From Polychytrium aggregatum (taxonomy: Eukaryota > Chytridiomycota > Chytridiomycetes > Polychytriales): 64,000 nt of DNA. Location of the stretch: NCBI RefSeq assembly GCF_025602895.1, contig NW_026516205.1, forward strand, positions 620,001 through 684,000, given 5' to 3'. Both the position numbers and the translations under genes were made by a program. Shown in pieces: positions 52,095 to 62,498 of this stretch. Positions within the stretch are counted from its first letter, which is position 1, and each line of letters starts with the position of its first letter. The notes below the pieces were generated by a model that was given only the letters and a program-made list of their open reading frames with translations, made no database searches and was not told the DNA's origin.

Positions 52095-55000
52095 TCACAA
52101 CACAGCCGCCTTGGGGATCACCTCGATGTAGCTGCCCGAAAAGTCAAGCTTGCTCACAACCACGTCGATGTAGGAGCCTGGAGCGGCGTCGACCGGTACA
52201 CCGAGGCGGGCTTCCTCACCGCCAAGGTCTGCCAAGAGCACGCGCGGCCGCTTTTGACCGCCGGAGGGAAGAACCAGGGCCTGGTAGACGGGTTCGAGGC
52301 CCGCGGCGGCAGGCAGGAGTGCTGATTCTTGAGGCCGCTCGTAGTGCCCAAGGCGGTCATGGAAGCTTGTCGGCGGAACATAGGGCATGGTCGCCGAGTT
52401 GACCGTGTCGCCTGGGGATCCACTGAGCCACAGCTTTTGTCGGCGTCGCATCCACTCCATCAGCCAGTACCGCTCGCTCTTGGAAGAGACGTAGTCGGTG
52501 CGCTTCTGGGCATGGTGCAGCCGGCCCAGCAGCTCGGTCATAGCCTCGACCGTGAAGGGATAGGGCAAAGTGCCGGTGGGATCGGCCACGGCGACGCCCG
52601 AGCCCACACTGGAGATGCCGGCGGGGCGGTCGCGCAGGAGCCAGGCCTTCATTTGCCAATGGGCAATCATGTCCTTGTAGCGACGCAGGGGTGACGTGAC
52701 CTTGACGTAGCCGACAAAGCCATCCTTTTCATATCCGTTCAGGGCGCCGGGCCCAGGTATACCCATGGTAAAGTGCCCGAGAGGCTCCAGGCTCGCCTGG
52801 GCCGCCGGCATGAAGGCCAGCAGCTCGAAAAAGGTGATGAACGGAGCGATGCCGCTGCGGTCGCAAGTCTGGCTGCGAACACGGTCCAGCAGAGAAACCA
52901 AGACCGAGTCTGGCGGATACTGGTCGGCAGCCCGCCAGCCCTTACGGTCGCGCGCATCTTGGGCTTGAGCCAGCATCGACCGCTGGCCGCGATAGATCAC
53001 GGGGATGTGTCGGTCGGCGCAGAACTTTGCAGCGATGCGGCCAGCAACGACCATGCTCTCGGAGACCATGACGTGGGCCGGCGAGATGTGCGCGGCCTTG
53101 TTGGCGTTGACCACAATCTCGGGCTGGACATCGGGCCAGAATGGCGTCGGTGAGTTCAACGGCGCCTTGGGCAGCGGATACTCCTCGACGCGCACCGAGA
53201 TGTCGGGTTGATCGGCAGCCAGCTTGCCCATCTTGATGCGGTGCTTGAGATGCGCCCCCGCAAGCCGCTGGATGGCCTGCAGATCCTTGACGGCCTGGCT
53301 GTCAAAGCGGGGATCGCGCGGCAGATCCCTGCGCTTCAGGGCCAAGCGCGCCCATGGCGACAGCGTCGAGGGGTTGCGGTCGGTGGCATAGATCTGGTCC
53401 CAGTTGAGTACAGTGTCGACGTCATCGTAGTGGACAATCTTGGGGTTGCGAATGATGCTCGGCTGCACCTTGTAGTCGCGGATCTGGCCGTCCTCTCCGA
53501 TGAGAGCACTAAAGGTCATGGCGCACTGTGACTTGCCGAGGTTGAAGCGCTCCTCGCTGAGGATATCGGGCATCATGGGGTAGTGGCGCTCAGGCAAGTA
53601 AACCGAGTTGGCGCGGAGCTGCGCAATCAGCGAGATTGGATGTGAGACCGGGATGTAGGCCGTTGGATCGGCAATGTGAACGTGCAGCCAGGTTCCCTGT
53701 GGAGTCTCCTCGACCGACATGCCGTCGTCCAGCTCGTGGGCAGTGGGATCATCAATCACGTAGACAGGAGTGCTGCCAAAGTCCCGGCGGAGGTGTGCGC
53801 ACGGCTCGACATCAAAGAAGCGGTCGGTTTCATCGACCTTGGGGGAAACGGTGAGGTTTCGAATCGTGTTCAGGATGTGCTGCCGATCCGACGCCGGCTC
53901 GTTCTCGGACGGAGATTTGTCTGTCTTCTTGGCGAGCTGGCTGGCGCTGTCGGTGGGGACAATTTGCTTGCCGGCTGCATCAAACTCGACGTGGGGTTGA
54001 GTCAGCAAGAGATCGCCATATCGCTCGCCCTCCCGGGCAACATCATCGGCCCACGAGGCCAGGCCGTGTCCCTCCAAGGTCTCGACGACGCCTCGCTTGC
54101 CGCCGATGTAGATCCGAGTGTTTTCCCAGGGTGTCCAGACGCCGATTTCTTTGAGCAGCAAGATGGCGTCCTGCTTGTTACTGCGGTACCGATAGAGAGG
54201 CTGCAGCTCCTTGATGATGCCCGAGAGCACGATCGTCTCGTAGACGCTTGGCAAGTGCGCCGACAGCGAAATATACGTCTTGACAGCGTCAATGAAGACT
54301 TGGTCATCCGATGAGAAGGTCACCTTGGGAGGCGTCTCGGGTGGAGCGTTGCTGCCGCCGTCGCGGCTACGACTCCAGTCAATCAGAGTCCGGGCCTTTG
54401 CGATGAAGCTCTCAAAGGCACTGCCTTGGCGCTGGCTCGAGATTTGCTTTCGCAGCCAGTCAATCTTCTGGACCTCCTCGGGGTCGCGGACACGGAACTC
54501 GGGCGTGAGTCCAATCGCCCATGGATCGACAGGCGAGAACTGGACGCTGTTCTTGAGCAGATACAGAAAGGTGGCATACAGTTCGGCGCTGGTGGGGCTG
54601 GTGCCGTCCTCTCCGTTGTAGTAGATCCACTGTGCGGCCTCGACGAGGGTGATTGTGGTGCGCTTCTTGACGATGGCGCTGTAGAGTTGGTTCATCCTGT
54701 ACGAACCGAGATGAAGAGTCGGAGGATCAGATGCAGTCACCTCCAGTCGCACAACGACGATCCAGCATGCACTGGAGATCATTCCATGTATCCCGCCTCC
54801 TACCTCTGGACCTTCGAGAACCGGTACGACTCGGCTGCTTCCTTGAATCTGTCGAGGTGCTGGACGGCGATGGGGGGCACACCTGTCAAGTCAAACAGAT
54901 TGCCGCTCCGACTGAGGCTCGACTGGTATTGCGGAAGCACGCTCTCGCCCTTCTCAGTAGCCCTCTGAACGATCTTGGAGAATGCCCAGCCGGGGATGCG

Positions 55001-55901: not shown

Positions 55902-57089
55902 CTACTCATCTTCAGAATCGGAGGCATAGGCGCCGAGCAGGCTGATGCCGCTCGGAACAGCAGCCGGAGTAGTGCTGCTTGGGGTGGCCTTCTTTGCAGC
56001 GACATCCTGCGCGGCTCCTGGCGCTTTTCGCTTGAGCGATATCCCCAGATCAAGTCCTGCTGCCTTCTTGACGAACGGGGTCGGTTTTGAGCCGGAGCCA
56101 GAGCCGGAGCCAGAGCCGGAGCCAGAGCCGGAGCCAGAGCCAGAGCCAGAGTTGGCCTGTTGATGATTAGAGTCCAAGGGCGCGGCCAGCCCTCCATCAT
56201 ACAGCTCCGAGGCAGCTGCCTTCTTCTCCCTCAGGGCAGCATCGTCGTCCAGGATGCGCCGCACCATGTTGCCGTCGTTGCTCTGGAACAGCGAGCGGAT
56301 CATGGCCTCTTCTTCAGGATCAAACTCATCGTCGTGATTGTCGTCCGCGCCGTTGACCAGCAGCCGGTCGAGCAGGTCGTCGGTGTCGATGCGCTCGTTC
56401 CGCGAGTTCCTCGTCCGGATCTCATCCAGGGCATCGAGGATCTCCATCTCTTTCTTGGAGGCAAGGGTGCGGTTCTCGAGGGCCTTCATGGGGTTGTTCT
56501 CCTCCTCCTGCTCGCGCTCGCGGTTGAGCTCCTCGTTGATGATTCTTTCCTCTCTCCAAGGCTCAAAGTTCCGCGCCGCACCGTGCTCGGCGAGGTAGTC
56601 TCCGTTCTTGGGGTCGGTCTTGAAGGTGATTTCGGCAGCACATTTTGGGCAGCGGATGTAGAAGCGAAAGATCTGTTGCCAGATTGTGGATTGAGAGTGT
56701 TTGAGGGAAGAAACGTGTGAGTTGATACTGTGAACCCAGGGGCAGCATCAAAGATCTAGATGCAAAGCGATGCCACAGACCAAAGCGACGGCATGGTCGA
56801 TGGAGAATGCAATGCTGGAGCCAATGCAAGGCTGCCGAAGAGATCGCCAGTGGGAGACGAGCGGAGAGCACACCTGTATGCCAAGGTACGTCTCGCCCTC
56901 GACCTGCTCCTTGCGTGCATTGAACTTTTTGCCCTTGTAGACGTATTCGCCGCACGTCTCGCATCGCATCGAGAAGGGTGTCATGAGCCGGACTTTTTGC
57001 TGCACATCCTTGGGCATGCGCCGCCTGGGAATCTTGGCGGGATCAAAGTCGGGAGGGAAGTACTTGTTGAGGACTTTTCTTTCGGACAT
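55902..57089 (-). CDS. YJU2: pre-mRNA splicing factor Yju2/CCDC94
   Basis: Spliceosome factor that acts with Prp2/Cwc25 in the first catalytic step. Two exons in phase: 57089-56874 and 56672-55902, 328 residues. It begins [20 protein letters not shown], the invariant family start, followed by a zinc site formed by [11 protein letters not shown] and, after the intron, [20 protein letters not shown], then [10 protein letters not shown]. The middle is acidic and helical ([25 protein letters not shown]). A Gly-Ser run of about 20 residues encoded by GAGCCG repeats precedes the basic C-terminal end, [12 protein letters not shown] and [13 protein letters not shown], again typical of the family. Confidence 0.95.
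56091..56154 (+). repeat. GAGCCG/GAGCCA repeat coding for a Gly-Ser run in Yju2
   Basis: Ten or so hexamer units GAGCCG/GAGCCA; on the minus strand they encode alternating Gly and Ser. Confidence 0.9.
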
Positions 57090-57511
57090 GGCGGGCTATG
57101 CGGCTGCAGTTGTGTGCGGTCGTGTGCGGTCGTGTGCGATCGTATGCGATGGTGTAGAGGATGGGGAGAGAGCAGATCGGCTGGGAACGACCTCGGCGAT
57201 GTGTGGCGAGGCGATACCCGTCACGTGGATCTGGATCACGTGTGGCACATCGGAGTTGGTGCGGATTTCGCGGTCAGCTCGGCCGTGGCGATCAGAGACA
57301 CCGCTCTGGTCATGAAGATCGCTCGGGCCATGGCTTCATACGGGCGTGCTGAGCCAGTGCCTCGGGAGAGTGCTCGACAAGTGGCATCCGTTATTTTGGC
57401 GGCTGCTCCAGGATCGAGGCGCATTCACTTGCCGTCCGCTCACCCCACCCGGACGGGCCGCATCGAGTCCAGCCGCCCAAACGCGCCGTCGAGGGCCTAC
57501 ACTTTATTCAG
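57090..57511. other. YJU2 promoter and left flank of the Fanzor element
   Basis: About 420 bp. Contains GTGTGCGGTC repeats at 57112-57148 just upstream of YJU2. Its last bases next to 57512 would be the guide-encoding flank if the Fanzor guide RNA reads out of the element. Confidence 0.5.
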
Positions 57512-57525
57512 AAAAAAACGGGACA
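57512..57525 (+). repeat. left terminal inverted repeat
   Basis: AAAAAAACGGGACA. Thirteen of its bases (57513-57525) match the reverse complement of 61104-61116 exactly. Confidence 0.7.
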
Positions 57526-57597
57526 ATATAGCCGTTTCCATGAACATGTAGTATGTGCTGTGCTTGCGTCAAGCAAAGCCACAAGAAATAAAACAGA
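57512..57597 (-). ncRNA. predicted Fanzor guide RNA (omega/fRNA) scaffold region
   Basis: Prediction by position only. For Fanzor and TnpB the guide RNA comes from the end of the gene and the transposon end next to it, with the guide read from the DNA just outside. Here only 86 bp separate the Fanzor stop from the element end, so the scaffold would lie in this stretch and perhaps overlap the end of the coding region. It contains an A-rich segment and an inverted-repeat end. No structure was computed. The guide would start at 57511 and run towards lower positions. Confidence 0.3.
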
Positions 57598-59970
57598 TCA
57601 CTTTGGCAGCCTCCGAGTGAAGACCGCCGGTCGCTCTCCGATCTCCACAATCGACTTGCACACTGTGATCATGTTGCGCGCCGCATTGACGTCGCGATTC
57701 CACACTGTCCGGCAGCTGGGATTCTTGCAGCTCCTGACAAAGTGGGAATTCGCAACACTGGGCGCATCGAGTCCTTCCAACCGAACTGGCTCCAGGCACT
57801 TGGAGCACACCTGCGAGGTGTTGAACTCGTTCGTCGAGACTACCTTGACGCTTCCATGATGGTGATTGGGACGGCGTCGGTGGTGCTCGAATTGCTCAAA
57901 GTACCGAGCAAATCGCTGCCTCCGAGGGCTGGATGCATAGCCCTTGCCCTGCCGCCATGATGCATTGCCAAAGGCGATCACCACATCGGTCCGTATCGGG
58001 GCGTGCTTCAGGACGGCCTTGCACATCCTGTCGACGGCCACTTGGCGCCTCTTGTGGCCCGTGAAGCGATGGTGACGGGCCTTCTTGCCAAGGTGGAAGT
58101 CGAGCTGCACTCGCAGCTCCGGTCGCAGGACATGGGTGAGATGGACCTTGAAAGCCTCCGAGGACGACACCTTGGGTGAAGGAGTGGTCGACATCCAGGT
58201 CTCGATGCTGAGTCGATACTTCATGGTGTTGTGCCACTTGGTGTTGGACGTATGGCCACACATGTGCTGGTAGTGACCATTGGAGAATGAGACCACCTCG
58301 TCTTGGTGGCCCGGTGCTTGGATGACCGCCGTGAAGATGGAGCCGACTCCAGGATCGATGCCAATCCAAGTGGTGCCACCGGGGTCTGGGTCGCCGATGT
58401 GGGCCTGGATGCGTTGCTCGGCAGTCGGAGGAGGCTCGGAAGTCTCGGTGTGATCGGTTCGAGGCAGAAACTTGACGAGACCGATGGTGCATCCAATGCC
58501 ATCGGTGCTGATCTCGTAGTTGAACAGCTTCTTGTTCACGTCCCGCTCTTGGAAGAGGGAACTACGCAGCTTGAAGCAACTGCGCCAGAGACGATCCTGG
58601 TTGTTGATGCCGTCCTCACCTTCATCCTTGAGCTTGTCCCTGGTGAGTCCAAGACGATGTTCGGTGTCAAGGAGTTGCCAGAGAGTGACCGTGTCAATCT
58701 TGACATACTTGGCCCTTGCAGTGCATAGAGGAACCATCGTGCACACAGCCGGAGGAGTGTCGACGGCGAGCTGCTTGAGTGCCCAGTTGATCCTGGCGGC
58801 CAGCTTGTTGATCTTGGACTTGGTGGTGCCGAGCTCAGACTTGGCCGTGGTGAACCTCTTGTCGTCGGAGGGAATGCCTTGGGTAGTGAGCTTGTCCAGC
58901 TTGGCCTGGCACTGCAGCTCGGTGACTCGGAGGGCGGGCATGTCACAGTCGATCCACTTGTGGACATTGTCGACCATCTTGTCTCGGGCGAGGATTCCCA
59001 CATGGTGTGAGAGGCGATGGAGGGCCCGGAAGCGGTCCTGGTCGTTGCTGTACCGAAACTCGTCCAGGATGTGGCCAAAGTCGGGATAGAGGAACTCGAG
59101 ATCGGCCTTGGGTGGAGTCTGCCCTGGTTTCTCGAAGAGCTCGAGACAGGCCTCGATGGCTTCGTGCTTATGCTTGTTGGCTGGGAAGACGGCAGCGCAG
59201 AAGCGGCGAAGGAGTCGCCAGTAGGCCAGGTTGAGGTGGGTGGTGCAGTTGGTGGCATAGGCATTGACAGCGAGAGTGAGAAGCTGACTGCGGGCACCAT
59301 CAGGTAGACGAGGGGCCGGAGGCAGGTCTGCATGTCGAGTGGTCTGGTAGTCGCGAAAGGAAGCGACCAGATGCTCGTTGTATTTCTTGGTGTCCCTGGC
59401 CGTCGAGAGGGCACCGTCCTGGACGATCTTGAAGCATTGGCGGATGAATGCAGGGGTGGCCTTGGAGATGACGGGGACGGGAATATCCTGCTCGATGCAC
59501 CGGAGGATATGTAGGTTGAGCAGCCTGGATGCCTCGAACTGGATCTGGGTCATGGCTGCGACGGTGGCCTGGATCTTGTCGCGGAGAGCGGGATTGAGAC
59601 AACAGCCATCCATCGTCTGCTTGAAGCAGCTGAACTGAGGGGCGGATGACCTTCCATCCACGAGAGGGACGACAGAGCTCTTGAGGGGCCGGTATTTGGG
59701 ACATTTGCTGGTGTTGCAACGTTCGTGATCGGTGCCATCGCACTGGCGACATCGCTTGCCGGTACTCGAGGAAGTAGATGGACCAGGCTCGGTGGGATCG
59801 ACATCCATTGGATCTGCAGAAGCAGTGGTGGTGAGCAACGGAGCAACAGACGACCAAGTATGCGTGGGGTCAGAATACGAACCAGAGACAGGCTCCGACT
59901 GTGACTTGGCTTTCTTGGGCCTGGGTGGCCGAGGCTGGCCATCACCGGTACCCTTGCGCTTCGGAGGCAT
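57598..59970 (-). CDS. Fanzor, TnpB-like RNA-guided endonuclease, intact
   Basis: Eukaryotic OMEGA nuclease: uses a guide RNA to cut DNA next to a short target-adjacent motif. One uninterrupted frame of 790 residues, no introns. N-terminus is basic with NLS-like patches (PPKRKG, PRPPRPKKAK), then a zinc-knuckle CRQCDGTDHERCNTSKC at residues 74-90 typical of Fanzor proteins. A long helical region (130-480) should be the REC/wedge part. RuvC: WIGIDPGVGSIFTAV with catalytic D539; the usual RuvC-II Glu position is VVIAFGNASW (664-673), without Glu, while E715 in STNEFNTSQVCSKC sits about 49 residues later, the displaced-Glu arrangement reported for Fanzors; the last Asp is D760 in VWNRDVNAARN. 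Zinc ribbon: C722/C725 and C748/C753. All key residues are present, so it is probably active. Codon use is like host genes. Own TATA-like box at 60099-60105. Confidence 0.93.
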   Translation of the reverse strand: MPPKRKGTGDGQPRPPRPKKAKSQSEPVSGSYSDPTHTWSSVAPLLTTTASADPMDVDPTEPGPSTSSSTGKRCRQCDGTDHERCNTSKCPKYRPLKSSVVPLVDGRSSAPQFSCFKQTMDGCCLNPALRDKIQATVAAMTQIQFEASRLLNLHILRCIEQDIPVPVISKATPAFIRQCFKIVQDGALSTARDTKKYNEHLVASFRDYQTTRHADLPPAPRLPDGARSQLLTLAVNAYATNCTTHLNLAYWRLLRRFCAAVFPANKHKHEAIEACLELFEKPGQTPPKADLEFLYPDFGHILDEFRYSNDQDRFRALHRLSHHVGILARDKMVDNVHKWIDCDMPALRVTELQCQAKLDKLTTQGIPSDDKRFTTAKSELGTTKSKINKLAARINWALKQLAVDTPPAVCTMVPLCTARAKYVKIDTVTLWQLLDTEHRLGLTRDKLKDEGEDGINNQDRLWRSCFKLRSSLFQERDVNKKLFNYEISTDGIGCTIGLVKFLPRTDHTETSEPPPTAEQRIQAHIGDPDPGGTTWIGIDPGVGSIFTAVIQAPGHQDEVVSFSNGHYQHMCGHTSNTKWHNTMKYRLSIETWMSTTPSPKVSSSEAFKVHLTHVLRPELRVQLDFHLGKKARHHRFTGHKRRQVAVDRMCKAVLKHAPIRTDVVIAFGNASWRQGKGYASSPRRQRFARYFEQFEHHRRRPNHHHGSVKVVSTNEFNTSQVCSKCLEPVRLEGLDAPSVANSHFVRSCKNPSCRTVWNRDVNAARNMITVCKSIVEIGERPAVFTRRLPK

Positions 59971-60098
59971 GGGGACAGAGGATGCTGGATGCCTGCCAGT
60001 GGTACTGGTCAGAACAGAGACTTTTTTTTATCGTACAATAGCGCGATGATCAGATCAAGGCGAGATGAGGGAAGAAAGCAGCAGGACGAAGGTGTGGC

Positions 60099-60105
60099 AT
60101 TTATA
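60099..60105 (-). promoter_or_regulatory. TATA-like box upstream of Fanzor
   Basis: TATAAAT on the minus strand, 129 bp upstream of the Fanzor ATG at 59970 and inside the element, so the nuclease can be transcribed apart from the transposase. Confidence 0.5.
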
Positions 60106-60210
60106 CCCGAGAGCAGGAACCCGTCTGTGCGGGCTGGTTGGGGAAGCGACCCTGTTCAAAAATCGCCGAGAGGTTGAAGCCAGGGATGTGAACGCGAAAA
60201 TGGCGGCGTG

Positions 60211-60273
60211 ATTGGAGGGACAACCCCAAATTGGAGGAACTCAACCCCAAATCGGTGGGGACTCAACCCCAAA
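60211..60273 (+). repeat. three tandem ~21-bp repeats at the transposase 3' end
   Basis: Units at 60211-60230, 60231-60251 and 60252-60273, each ending in CAACCCCAAA (20, 21 and 22 bp). They replace the expected transposase C-terminus: after PIENFFG the frame reads through one unit and stops at 60241. Confidence 0.9.
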
Positions 60274-61045
60274 GAAGTTCTCGATGGGATTGAAGTCGGG
60301 TGAAGCAGGTGGGGTGAAGATCACTGACCATCCTCGGCGATCGATGCAGTCCAGGACAGCCATTGTCTTGTGCATGCTGACATTGTCCATCACAATCACA
60401 GAGTCATCTGGGAAGGTCGCTCGCTCAAAGAACTCGACCATCGAGTGTGTCTTGAATGATGTGGGGATGTACATGCGATGCAGCACACCAGAGTGGTTGA
60501 TGGCAAATGCAGCCGAGACAGACTTGTGTTTCATGTTGTGGTGCTGACGGAGTGGGACACCCTTCGGTGTATCCGTAAAGAGGGAAAATGGATCTCCTGA
60601 TCCCCGTCTCATCGACAAAAACGAATCGCCGCGGGTCGATGGAGCGGACCTGGTCCCTGAACTGTGCCACTCGCTCATCCAGTCGCTTGGACTTGTAGAG
60701 GTGTGTTGCCCTCTTGTGTGAGAGACCTGCTCGGTGGATGGCAGTGTGGCAGAGTGTGAGTGATACTTTCCTCTGGAGGATGGACTCGAGCTTGCATCGC
60801 AACACAGGACCAGTCTGGAACGGGTCCTGTTCAATCAGGGTGCGAATGACTGGACATGCCTGCTCGAAGAAAGTGGATCTGCGAGCTGGGACCCGGGATG
60901 GGTCATCCAGCTTGCATCCTCGGTGCCATCGATGGATGGTGCTCTTGGATACACTGAATATGGAGGCGACCTTACGCAGGCTATGGATGAGGGCGTAGCA
61001 TCGCAATGCGGCGGTGCGAAAGTCGGATGTGTGGCGAATGGTCAT
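60241..61045 (-). pseudogene. Tc1-type DD34E transposase, frameshifted and C-terminally altered
   Basis: N-terminal frame from ATG at 61045 has helix-turn-helix motifs (SLRKVASIFSVSKSTIHRWH), AGLSHKRATHLYKSKR and the first catalytic block FVFVDETGIRRS. Near 60565-60576 the frame shifts by one base: the first frame goes on to a stop at 60425, while the neighbouring frame carries TPKGVPLRQHHNMKHKSVSA, the second Asp in VIVMDNVSMH and the final Glu in SPDFNPIENFFG. There are 34 residues between this Asp and Glu, the DD34E spacing of Tc1. The usual residues after PIENFFG are replaced by a short tail from tandem repeats. So the enzyme looks inactive unless the shift is a sequencing error. Confidence 0.88.
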
Positions 61046-61103
61046 GGCCAGCGCGCGATAACATTGGGTAACAAAATATTCGATGAATGGTCAAAAACCC
61101 GGG

Positions 61104-61116
61104 TGTCCCGTTTTTT
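61104..61116 (-). repeat. right terminal inverted repeat
   Basis: TGTCCCGTTTTTT on the plus strand; its reverse complement equals 57513-57525. Confidence 0.7.
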
Positions 61117-62498
61117 ATTGGATTGCCTGTAATTGGTCCTGCCTGCTCTCACTGGATGCCGACGGTGTGGTCGCTTGATGTCTCGGCTGACCCTGGCAAT
61201 TTGACCTCCCCGTCGCGTGGCTGGCGGCAGGCGCGAGGGGCAGCCAGAGGGGTCCGTGCGGGGCACGAGAAGGGCGCGGAGCGGTGCAGACGATGCAGAC
61301 GATGCAGACGACGCCGATGAAGCCGTGGGTGCAGGTGATGCTGGTCCTTGGGGGATGTCGGCAACATCGGCAACACCAGCAGCCTCGGCGGACAGCGCAG
61401 GACTGTGTGGGTGTGGGTGGCTCCTGTCCTGGGTGTCGTCTGGCAGCAAAGCGACAGCCGCAACGGACGCACACAGACACACACGGCTCAGTCTCCAGCA
61501 CTTGCACAGCGACGGCAGTGTGTCCTGGTCACCTGTTGGAGGGGGGGAGCCACAGATGCGCCTCTGCCCCCGCAATGCCGAGCAACGCCGAGCAATATCG
61601 GAGGCCGAAGCAGACCGTCGCCCCGACGAATTTCATGAAGATCTGCATGGCGATCGCCATGGTGGTTGCCATGGTGGTTGCCCTGGTGATTGCCCTGGTC
61701 AGGGCGGCGGCGACCAAGGCTCCCGTGTCGCACCGGCTGTGCGCCGTTGCGCTATCCCTCGCACGTGAGCAGCATTGTATGGACGCGGTCGCACATGGCC
61801 GCTGCGCACACTGTCGGTGTGGCACGGGCTTGTGCGCGCGCAGCCACCGGCACAGCCACCGGCGAAGCGAATCAAAGGGCGATGATCAAATCCTGGTCGG
61901 CCCGACGCAGTTCCCATTCAACATGGCCACCTGTTTAACACCACCACCATTCACCACCACCACCACCACCACCACCACCACCACCACCACTACCACCACC
62001 ACTACCACCACCACTACCACCACCACTACCACCACCACCATCGACCAAGCCGTGTGTCCGCCCCGTCGCCGCACCATCGCCCACGTTGCCCGTGGCGACA
62101 CCCGGTCCTCACGTTCCGGTCTTCTCGGCGTCCTTGTCAAAAGTGGTCCCTCTGTCCCACCATCCCCACATTGCAAACTTTTGTCCTGGCGCCGTCCGCT
62201 CCTCTGGCCTGCGCCTTCGATAAATACCCCCCCCCAAGCGTTCCGCCGTCTCTGCCCAGGATCGCCTCTGGGACTTTGATACATCTATCCGCCGTCCCAT
62301 CCTCCCGGTCGGCATCAGCTCCCATCTCTGGTCGCCGCCAATTCCCATCCACCCTATCTTCGCCTCCGCCTTCGCCATCACCTTCGCAGTCGCCTTGGCA
62401 TTCGCCTTCTCGCATTCCGTCGCATCGCATCCGTCCCTTGGATCCCACACCTCTCATTTCCTCTCATCCCAACCTGACGCCCGACAACCCAGCCCGCC
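61117..62498. other. right flank of the element and 5' region of the last gene
   Basis: Holds an imperfect CAC/ACC trinucleotide array (about 61939-62041), GCAGACGAT repeats near 61282-61312, short GGTTGCC repeats near 61661-61695 and a run of nine C near 62227-62235. The segment 62240-62498 is pyrimidine-rich, like a promoter and 5' UTR. No gene is supported. Confidence 0.5.
61939..62041 (+). repeat. imperfect (CAC)n trinucleotide array
   Basis: About 100 bp of CAC/ACC units with occasional TAC, open in all plus-strand frames. Confidence 0.92.

Follow-up and report, generated by a model that had tools for sequence, protein, structure and literature searches.

INTRODUCTION

Several described systems come close to the locus analyzed here. 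(i) Spu-1 of Spizellomyces punctatus carries the gene of SpuFz1, a Fanzor1 protein, within a terminal inverted repeat (TIR) element with a putative TA target-site duplication (TSD) (PMC10432273, PMC3627910), and these articles also describe several intact copies, short "ghost" elements in which the RNA end is retained, and base conservation ahead of the left repeat. (ii) PGv-1 and PUl-1, according to PMC3627910, are TA-flanked elements that each encode Fanzor1 together with a Mariner transposase. (iii) The TnpB proteins of IS607 and IS200-605 carry a C-terminal TNB/zinc ribbon. These features recur at a locus that we studied in a window of 64,000 nucleotides, the whole stretch of DNA analyzed, and the C terminus of SpuFz1 aligns weakly with that of the Fanzor found there. 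PMC10711439 also mentions Fanzor elements whose copies number up to hundreds. The element described here, with a transposase, many copies, and a one-sided insertion motif, may bear on the question of why eukaryotic transposons carry Fanzors.

RESULTS

A Fanzor1 frame on the minus strand

The Fanzor coding frame (790 amino acids plus stop) occupies positions 57598 to 59970 and is delimited by an ATG-to-stop frame that matches Pfam PF07282 (TNB; E 1.7e-9). The original prediction had claimed an uninterrupted 790-codon frame, which is present at exactly these positions, and had omitted its strand: it is the minus strand, the plus strand being full of stops across this interval. The TNB match and copies in the same genome that span residues 1 to 790 place the frame beyond chance.

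The motifs that had been claimed are all present, and all lie on the minus strand. (i) Residues 1 to 22 form a basic, NLS-like stretch (MPPKRK...RPPRPKKAK; 59905 to 59970), 21 of whose 22 residues are invariant in 25 copies and which may act as an NLS. (ii) A CX2CX4HX7C zinc knuckle follows (59701 to 59751); its ligands are best read as C74, C77, H82, and C90, and its spacing is the same in the diverged N-terminal module of one copy (L039). (iii) The RuvC-I residue D539 stands in a DPG motif (codon at 58354 to 58356; sequence and copy alignment). (iv) The rearranged RuvC-II residue E715 (E-x6-CxxC; codon at 57826 to 57828), six residues ahead of the first zinc-ribbon Cys, is also kept in a sister-family fragment of 65% identity. 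(v) C722, C725, C748, and C753 make up the zinc ribbon (57712 to 57807), as seen in the sequence, the copies, and the sister fragment. (vi) D760 belongs to an RD pair (codon at 57691 to 57693).

A PDB profile search with 25 copies gave a sole match up to an E value of 10, namely, a weak one to SpuFz1 (8gkh; E 0.089, residues 739 to 789), in which D760 aligns with the Asp of WNRD; this Asp is likely D606, named as an active-site residue of SpuFz1 in PMC10432273. In a single-sequence search, LaTranC proteins were the sole matches and scored weakly (E 0.39 and 0.44), and the NCBIfam TnpB models matched only the C-terminal part, at 27.3 of 100 bits, far under their cut-offs. Protein searches with one sequence or with 25 copies (8,000 candidates scored each) returned no Fanzor relatives outside the genome, and none were found in viral contigs or prokaryote genomes; both results say little, as the collections covered were not eukaryotic.

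The motif evidence supports well the classification of the 790-amino-acid protein as a Fanzor1 member. The pattern D-X(125,275)-[TS][TS]XX-C4 zinc finger-X(5,50)-RD, given for Fanzor1 in PMC3627910, is matched by D539, T718 S719, C722/725/748/753, and R759 D760. The RuvC-I Asp in DPG and a Glu six residues before the first CxxC are Fanzor1 signatures according to PMC10711439. In addition, the carrier is a eukaryotic DNA transposon other than IS607, since it is a TIR/TA element with a DDE_3 transposase. Fanzor2 was rejected because the context is of the mariner type and not IS607 and the NCBIfam model IS607_TnpB reached 17.2 of 350 bits. The Fanzor identity originally proposed is thus borne out by motif (DPG in RuvC-I, rearranged Glu, C4 ribbon, and RD) and by the TNB domain.

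The enclosing Tc1/mariner element and its surroundings

The original prediction had missed the mariner element that encloses the frame, its broken transposase, and the multicopy family to which it belongs. The whole element measures 3,630 bp (57500 to 61129, minus strand) and reads left end, transposase, Fanzor, right end; its limits were set by aligning copies and by the TIR pair. The left TIR, CAGGCAATCCAATAAAAAACGGGACA (61104 to 61129), and the right TIR, TGTCCCGTTTTTTTCTGAATAAAGTG (57500 to 57525), both on the minus strand, were identified in the same way and differ from each other at several positions; the TIR core occurs in the window at two places only, the two element ends. In the aligned copies, the left end reads TTA followed by CAGGCAATCC, and the right end reads TCTGAATAAAGTG followed by TA. 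The TA dinucleotides at 57498 to 57499 (right) and 61130 to 61131 (left) are a presumed TSD, present at both ends of 42/42 non-redundant sites and read from the flanks alone, as there was no empty site among the 11 loci with joined flanks that were searched (40 were prepared). A possible empty site at the junction of L003 was discarded, being a single weak repeat match too diverged to read.

The transposase gene (60241 to 61045, minus strand; Tc1/mariner, DDE_3) was recognized from 310-amino-acid open frames at other loci, found in 12 of the copies examined. Relative to copy L013, the window copy has a 2-bp gap near 60569 and lacks 105+3 bp near 60220 to 60261, and its transposase is therefore broken; fuller copies of the element are about 3,738 bp long. 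One open-frame transposase copy was tested and contained the DDE_3 domain (E 2.1e-20), and the spacing, counted by eye, is DD34E, with 34 residues between D and E. By its sequence features, the element is of the Tc1/mariner type with a DD34E transposase. No transposase relatives were found in viral contigs. The transposase remnant has a 22-bp tandem repeat (2.5 copies, 60221 to 60273) at its 3' end, ahead of the Fanzor gene. Low-complexity repeats near the element were uninformative, as was the search for tRNAs, which found none.

Neighboring genes include a Saf4/Yju2-like splicing factor in at least two pieces (55902 to 57089; PF04502) and an RNB ribonuclease frame (52095 to 54782). Fungal chitin-synthase N-terminal domains (13 genome matches) and a radial-spoke protein (8 matches) indicate that the host is probably a zoosporic (swimming-spore) fungus, and at that level the earlier description of the genome as chytrid-like fits these chitin-synthase and ciliary domains. 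The genome also holds a reverse-transcriptase family, many of whose scored matches lie in 1,284-amino-acid frames clustered on contigs; it is possibly a young retrotransposon and perhaps centromeric.

Copy number, intactness, and selection

The assembly that holds the window comprises 64.68 Mb in 418 contigs. It contains 276 matches to the right-end 28-mer (at most 3 mismatches) and 484 to the left-end 20-mer core (at most 2 mismatches), counts that include both contigs of duplicated regions. All 57 Fanzor matches scored (from 1,260 first-look candidates) span residues 1 to 790 at 94 to 100% identity, and 50 of these 57 places, some of which are one site on two contigs, have no internal stop. 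Loci L001 to L030 are the best protein matches and are thus biased to intact frames. Loci L031 to L050 were picked by an exact right end in contig order (L038, L047, and L050 repeat L019, L024, and L028); in this set, Fanzor is intact at 9/20 loci and a transposase frame of at least 300 amino acids is present at 6/20.

The ratio of mean pN to mean pS was 0.29 for Fanzor (28 intact 790-amino-acid copies, including three that repeat a site on a second contig) and 0.23 for the transposase (10 copies). By this measure, Fanzor is under purifying selection. A different account is that the family is a decaying relic, in which the youth of the copies alone explains the open Fanzor frame and the gene has no present function. 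The broken transposase of the window copy and the absence of an intact Fanzor frame at the other 11/20 loci chosen by right end would fit it; we nevertheless regard it as very unlikely, since copies that differ by 4.1% on average still show the open frames and the pN/pS ratio given above and since both genes are open at some loci (3/20).

Conservation of the predicted catalytic and zinc-binding residues is nearly complete in the 28 intact copies: D539 and each of the knuckle residues C74, C77, H82, and C90 are kept in 28/28, and E715, D760, and C722 are each kept in 27/28, the exceptions being K (in L024), E, and R, respectively. Since each of these three replacements occurs in one of 28 open frames, not every open frame need be active. 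The nearby C85 is S in 6/28.

Variants of the family were seen at several loci. In L039, the N-terminal ~90 residues (L039:1788-2060) are replaced by a diverged module that shares the CX2CX4HX7C knuckle, as though it had been exchanged whole. A sister Fanzor fragment adjoins one copy (L021:4055-4441); it is 65% identical over residues 661 to 790, keeps E715, the ribbon Cys residues, and D760, and has a right end of its own, CTGTCCCGTTTCTTTCTGGATAGACTG followed by TA. At another locus (L008:3930-4190), a related short element of ~200 bp with TATTCTTCGCA on both its sides abuts the right end and is possibly a repair product. The PF07282 matches scored across the genome (150 of 663 candidates) fall into classes of about 70, 61, 52, 46, and 43.5 bits, and several families of the Fanzor/TnpB type seem to be present; on contigs C124 and C379, members of the 70-bit class form inverted pairs about 4.9 kb apart.

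A predicted guide RNA at the right end

Elsewhere, Fanzor1 guide RNAs (reRNAs) have the TIR and the TSD within a three-stem scaffold (PMC10711439), and the guide of SpuFz1 comprises 14 to 15 nucleotides (nt) beyond the scaffold (PMC10432273). For the window copy, we predict an omega-RNA scaffold at 57498 to 57629 (minus strand) that would consist of the last ~10 codons, the 3' untranslated region, the right TIR, and TA. Three observations point to it. (i) The last 130 nt plus TA (132 nt) fold with -41.9 kcal/mol and a z score of -3.78, with 1 of 200 shuffles as good; results were less striking for 197 nt that stop slightly before the end of the element (z -2.05) and for 102 nt (z -2.15). In the minimum-energy fold, but not in the centroid, the terminal helix takes in the TA. 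(ii) Synonymous diversity in codons 721 to 790 is 0.028 (25 copies), compared with 0.083 in the whole gene (28 copies); it is low in codons 1 to 79 too (0.043). (iii) The right end is kept over 166 to 447 bp in 13/13 short derivatives examined, which were chosen for having both ends and of which L058 and L059 are one site on two contigs; the left end is kept over about 97 to 663 bp. The RNA showed no covariation, with 0 base pairs changed on both sides, and Rfam gave nothing at gathering score and one chance-level match (E 0.077).

By analogy with SpuFz1, the guide of the window copy would be the ~15 nt of host flank at 57483 to 57497 (minus strand). An AATAAA lies within the right TIR (57503 to 57508, minus strand), 3 nt from its end, and is missing from the right end of the sister fragment in L021. 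Should it serve as a polyadenylation signal, transcripts would stop in the host flank, close to the length expected for the guide.

A one-sided insertion motif

Insertion sites were compiled from 50 loci, of which 48 yielded both ends at the thresholds applied (L011 and L020 were dropped); removal of six site repeats left 42 sites, including three short derivatives and one (L007) whose left end was shifted one base by the script. The left flank has A at -1, T at -2, and T at -3 in 42/42 and A or T at -4 in 38/42, and the base after TA in the right flank is G at 15 sites, A at 10, T at 9, and C at 8. T precedes 11.5% of the 2,310 TAs in the window, and the binomial P value for 42/42 is 4e-40. 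Among exact left ends genome-wide, T is at -3 in 172/178, with six exceptions; this count includes both contigs of duplicated sites, so that its P value overstates independence. The proportion is 10/11 for a variant left end and 12/13 for the short derivatives, the exception being a C in L057; in these derivatives, A or T at -4 is weaker than in the full set (9/13 only). One same-site partner copy (L056) has TTG instead of TTA.

The left repeat in S. punctatus has a conserved CA upstream of it, and TAM measurements for SpuFz1 gave CATA (PMC10432273, PMC3627910); in our reading, CATA is the conserved CA plus the TSD TA. The T at -3 on the left side only, with this parallel, leads us to predict TTA as the TAM of the element, perhaps in the longer form (A/T)TTA. 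The candidate TAM of the window copy at the donor site is ATTA (61130 to 61133, minus strand). The right end supplies GTG before TA, so that a filled site would read GTA and might escape cutting.

The mariner transposase could instead prefer its targets asymmetrically, in which case the T before the left TA would be uninformative on the Fanzor TAM. The differences between the TIRs would make an oriented transpososome possible, and the T also stands in those 12/13 short derivatives, which lack a full Fanzor gene, although the RNA end is retained in them and Fanzor could act on them in trans. We consider this explanation unlikely: a symmetric TA target would favor T-TA-A on both sides, when A follows the right TA at only 10/42 sites, and in S. 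punctatus the bases conserved beside the left repeat match the measured TAM.

Mosaic copies and same-site pairs

Linkage was measured in 25 non-redundant intact genes at 122 biallelic sites (minor count of at least 4). Mean r2 was 0.44 within 10 bp, 0.08 at 10 to 30 bp, and 0.04 at 30 to 60 bp, the last matching the shuffled data. When each block contributed a single site, r2 at distances under 100 bp was 0.057, compared with a null of 0.042 (95%, 0.033 to 0.052), so that a little linkage is left. Short multi-state blocks reassort. Similar values were obtained in the 5' part of the element (0.07 to 0.08 at 10 to 150 bp and then 0.03 to 0.04), and longer shared tracts occur, L003 and L004 being identical over 1,620 bp.

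The search with joined flanks at the 11 loci found a second place for 8, with an element-sized gap at 7 and one of about 0.3 kb at 1. Such same-site contig pairs would be haplotypes. The flanks of eight full-length pairs are nearly identical, with 0 to 3 substitutions per pair over 156 to 1,632 bp in seven; in the pair L007/L014, a tandem repeat in the right flank differs as well. The elements themselves differ at 75 to 157 sites (2.0 to 4.3%), compared with 4.1% for random pairs (n = 1,073). Differences are scarce in the first 150 bp (2, with 31.8 expected) and the last 28 bp (1, with 9.5 expected); no clear protection is seen over the last 150 bp (22, with 34.6 expected; P = 0.06), and the middle has 655 with 793 expected (about 0.8 times the random value), so that partners are somewhat closer than random. 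For 818 of 922 same-site differences, both states occur at other loci; for 104, one does, and for 0, neither does. At the site of L009 (3,601 bp), the other contig holds a 307-bp derivative with the same unusual left end. No donor copy was found for the tracts compared in three pairs, the nearest other copies differing by at least 64 sites.

Gene conversion between transposons as such is known. The mosaic and the same-site pattern are what gene conversion between elements would leave, and they suggest that the copies keep exchanging sequence; none of the titles listed in our literature search concerned Fanzor together with gene conversion. The main competing explanation is that mosaicism and same-site divergence are assembly artifacts, such as mixed consensus or wrong repeat interiors. 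Same-site pairs agree only in about the first 100 to 150 bp on the left and the last ~30 bp on the right, as if only flank-anchored stretches had been assembled correctly, and the stretch that is protected is about as long as a short read. These points make the artifact possible, but several others argue against it: (i) the contigs are gapless, with 0 N in 345 kb (window plus loci); (ii) linkage is nearly lost within 30 to 60 bp, below the usual k-mer size and finer than chimeras in a k-mer graph should give; (iii) the states that distinguish partners recur at other loci, as counted above; (iv) the Fanzor frames stay open, with pN/pS at 0.29; (v) structural variants differ between partners, as in the 3,601- and 307-bp case; and (vi) the middles of same-site pairs are still somewhat closer than those of random pairs. 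Reverse-transcriptase copies were rejected as a control, as ~130 of 150 scored matches had 148.3 to 148.4 bits and showed no visible variation.

DISCUSSION

The frame, motifs, ends, TA flanks, left-only T, RNA-like 3' end, purifying selection, and copy number described above are read from sequence; with high probability, their best explanation is a Fanzor1-type nuclease on a Tc1/mariner element, guided by RNA from the right end, that cuts empty donor sites so that the element is retained by repair. RNA guidance, cleavage, TAM use, and retention by repair are what we infer. The DD34E transposase, in trans for the window copy, would cut and paste the element at TA. Fanzor would bind an RNA from the right end, with a scaffold made of the 3' end of its own mRNA, the TIR, and TA and with ~15 nt of adjoining host DNA as the guide. 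Upon excision, the empty donor site would read TTA plus guide and would be cut, and repair from the homologue or another copy would restore the element; the filled site, reading GTA plus guide, would be spared.

We propose, tentatively, a further consequence of Fanzor cutting and repair. It would keep all copies in one gene pool, with interiors being overwritten and flanks and terminal repeats kept, and only insertions adjacent to TTA would persist through rescue. The few hundred copies would then evolve like one freely recombining population and, if this is true, would provide natural-genome evidence for a role of Fanzor in transposon retention and homogenization. Many copies and a one-sided insertion motif mean that the TAM can be predicted and tested, and the copies can be compared, as in a population study, to test whether repair between elements is driven by Fanzor cutting. 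A transposase, a nuclease, and short RNA-bearing derivatives in one fungus would make a good system for such a test.

A one-sided motif over 178 ends and mosaic copies were not found described in the literature searched, as far as its available text goes. The protein and the element are of a kind already known, namely, Fanzor1 with a Mariner transposase and high-copy Fanzor elements, and they differ from the individual systems as follows. (i) In contrast to the TnpB proteins of IS607 and IS200-605, the Fanzor here has a rearranged Glu and a long N terminus, and its element has a DDE transposase instead of TnpA. (ii) Spu-1 is about 2.1 kb long, and Saito et al. (PMC10432273) report no transposase between its repeats, whereas here a DD34E transposase lies inside the TIRs. 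The window Fanzor has 790 amino acids and a predicted TTA motif, compared with 633 amino acids in SPu-1-1p and with CATA, and no similarity between SpuFz1 and the window Fanzor was detected outside the C terminus. (iii) PGv-1, according to PMC3627910, occurs as a single copy and has a third gene, whose product contains a GIY-YIG domain, whereas the element described here has two genes and hundreds of end matches in its genome.
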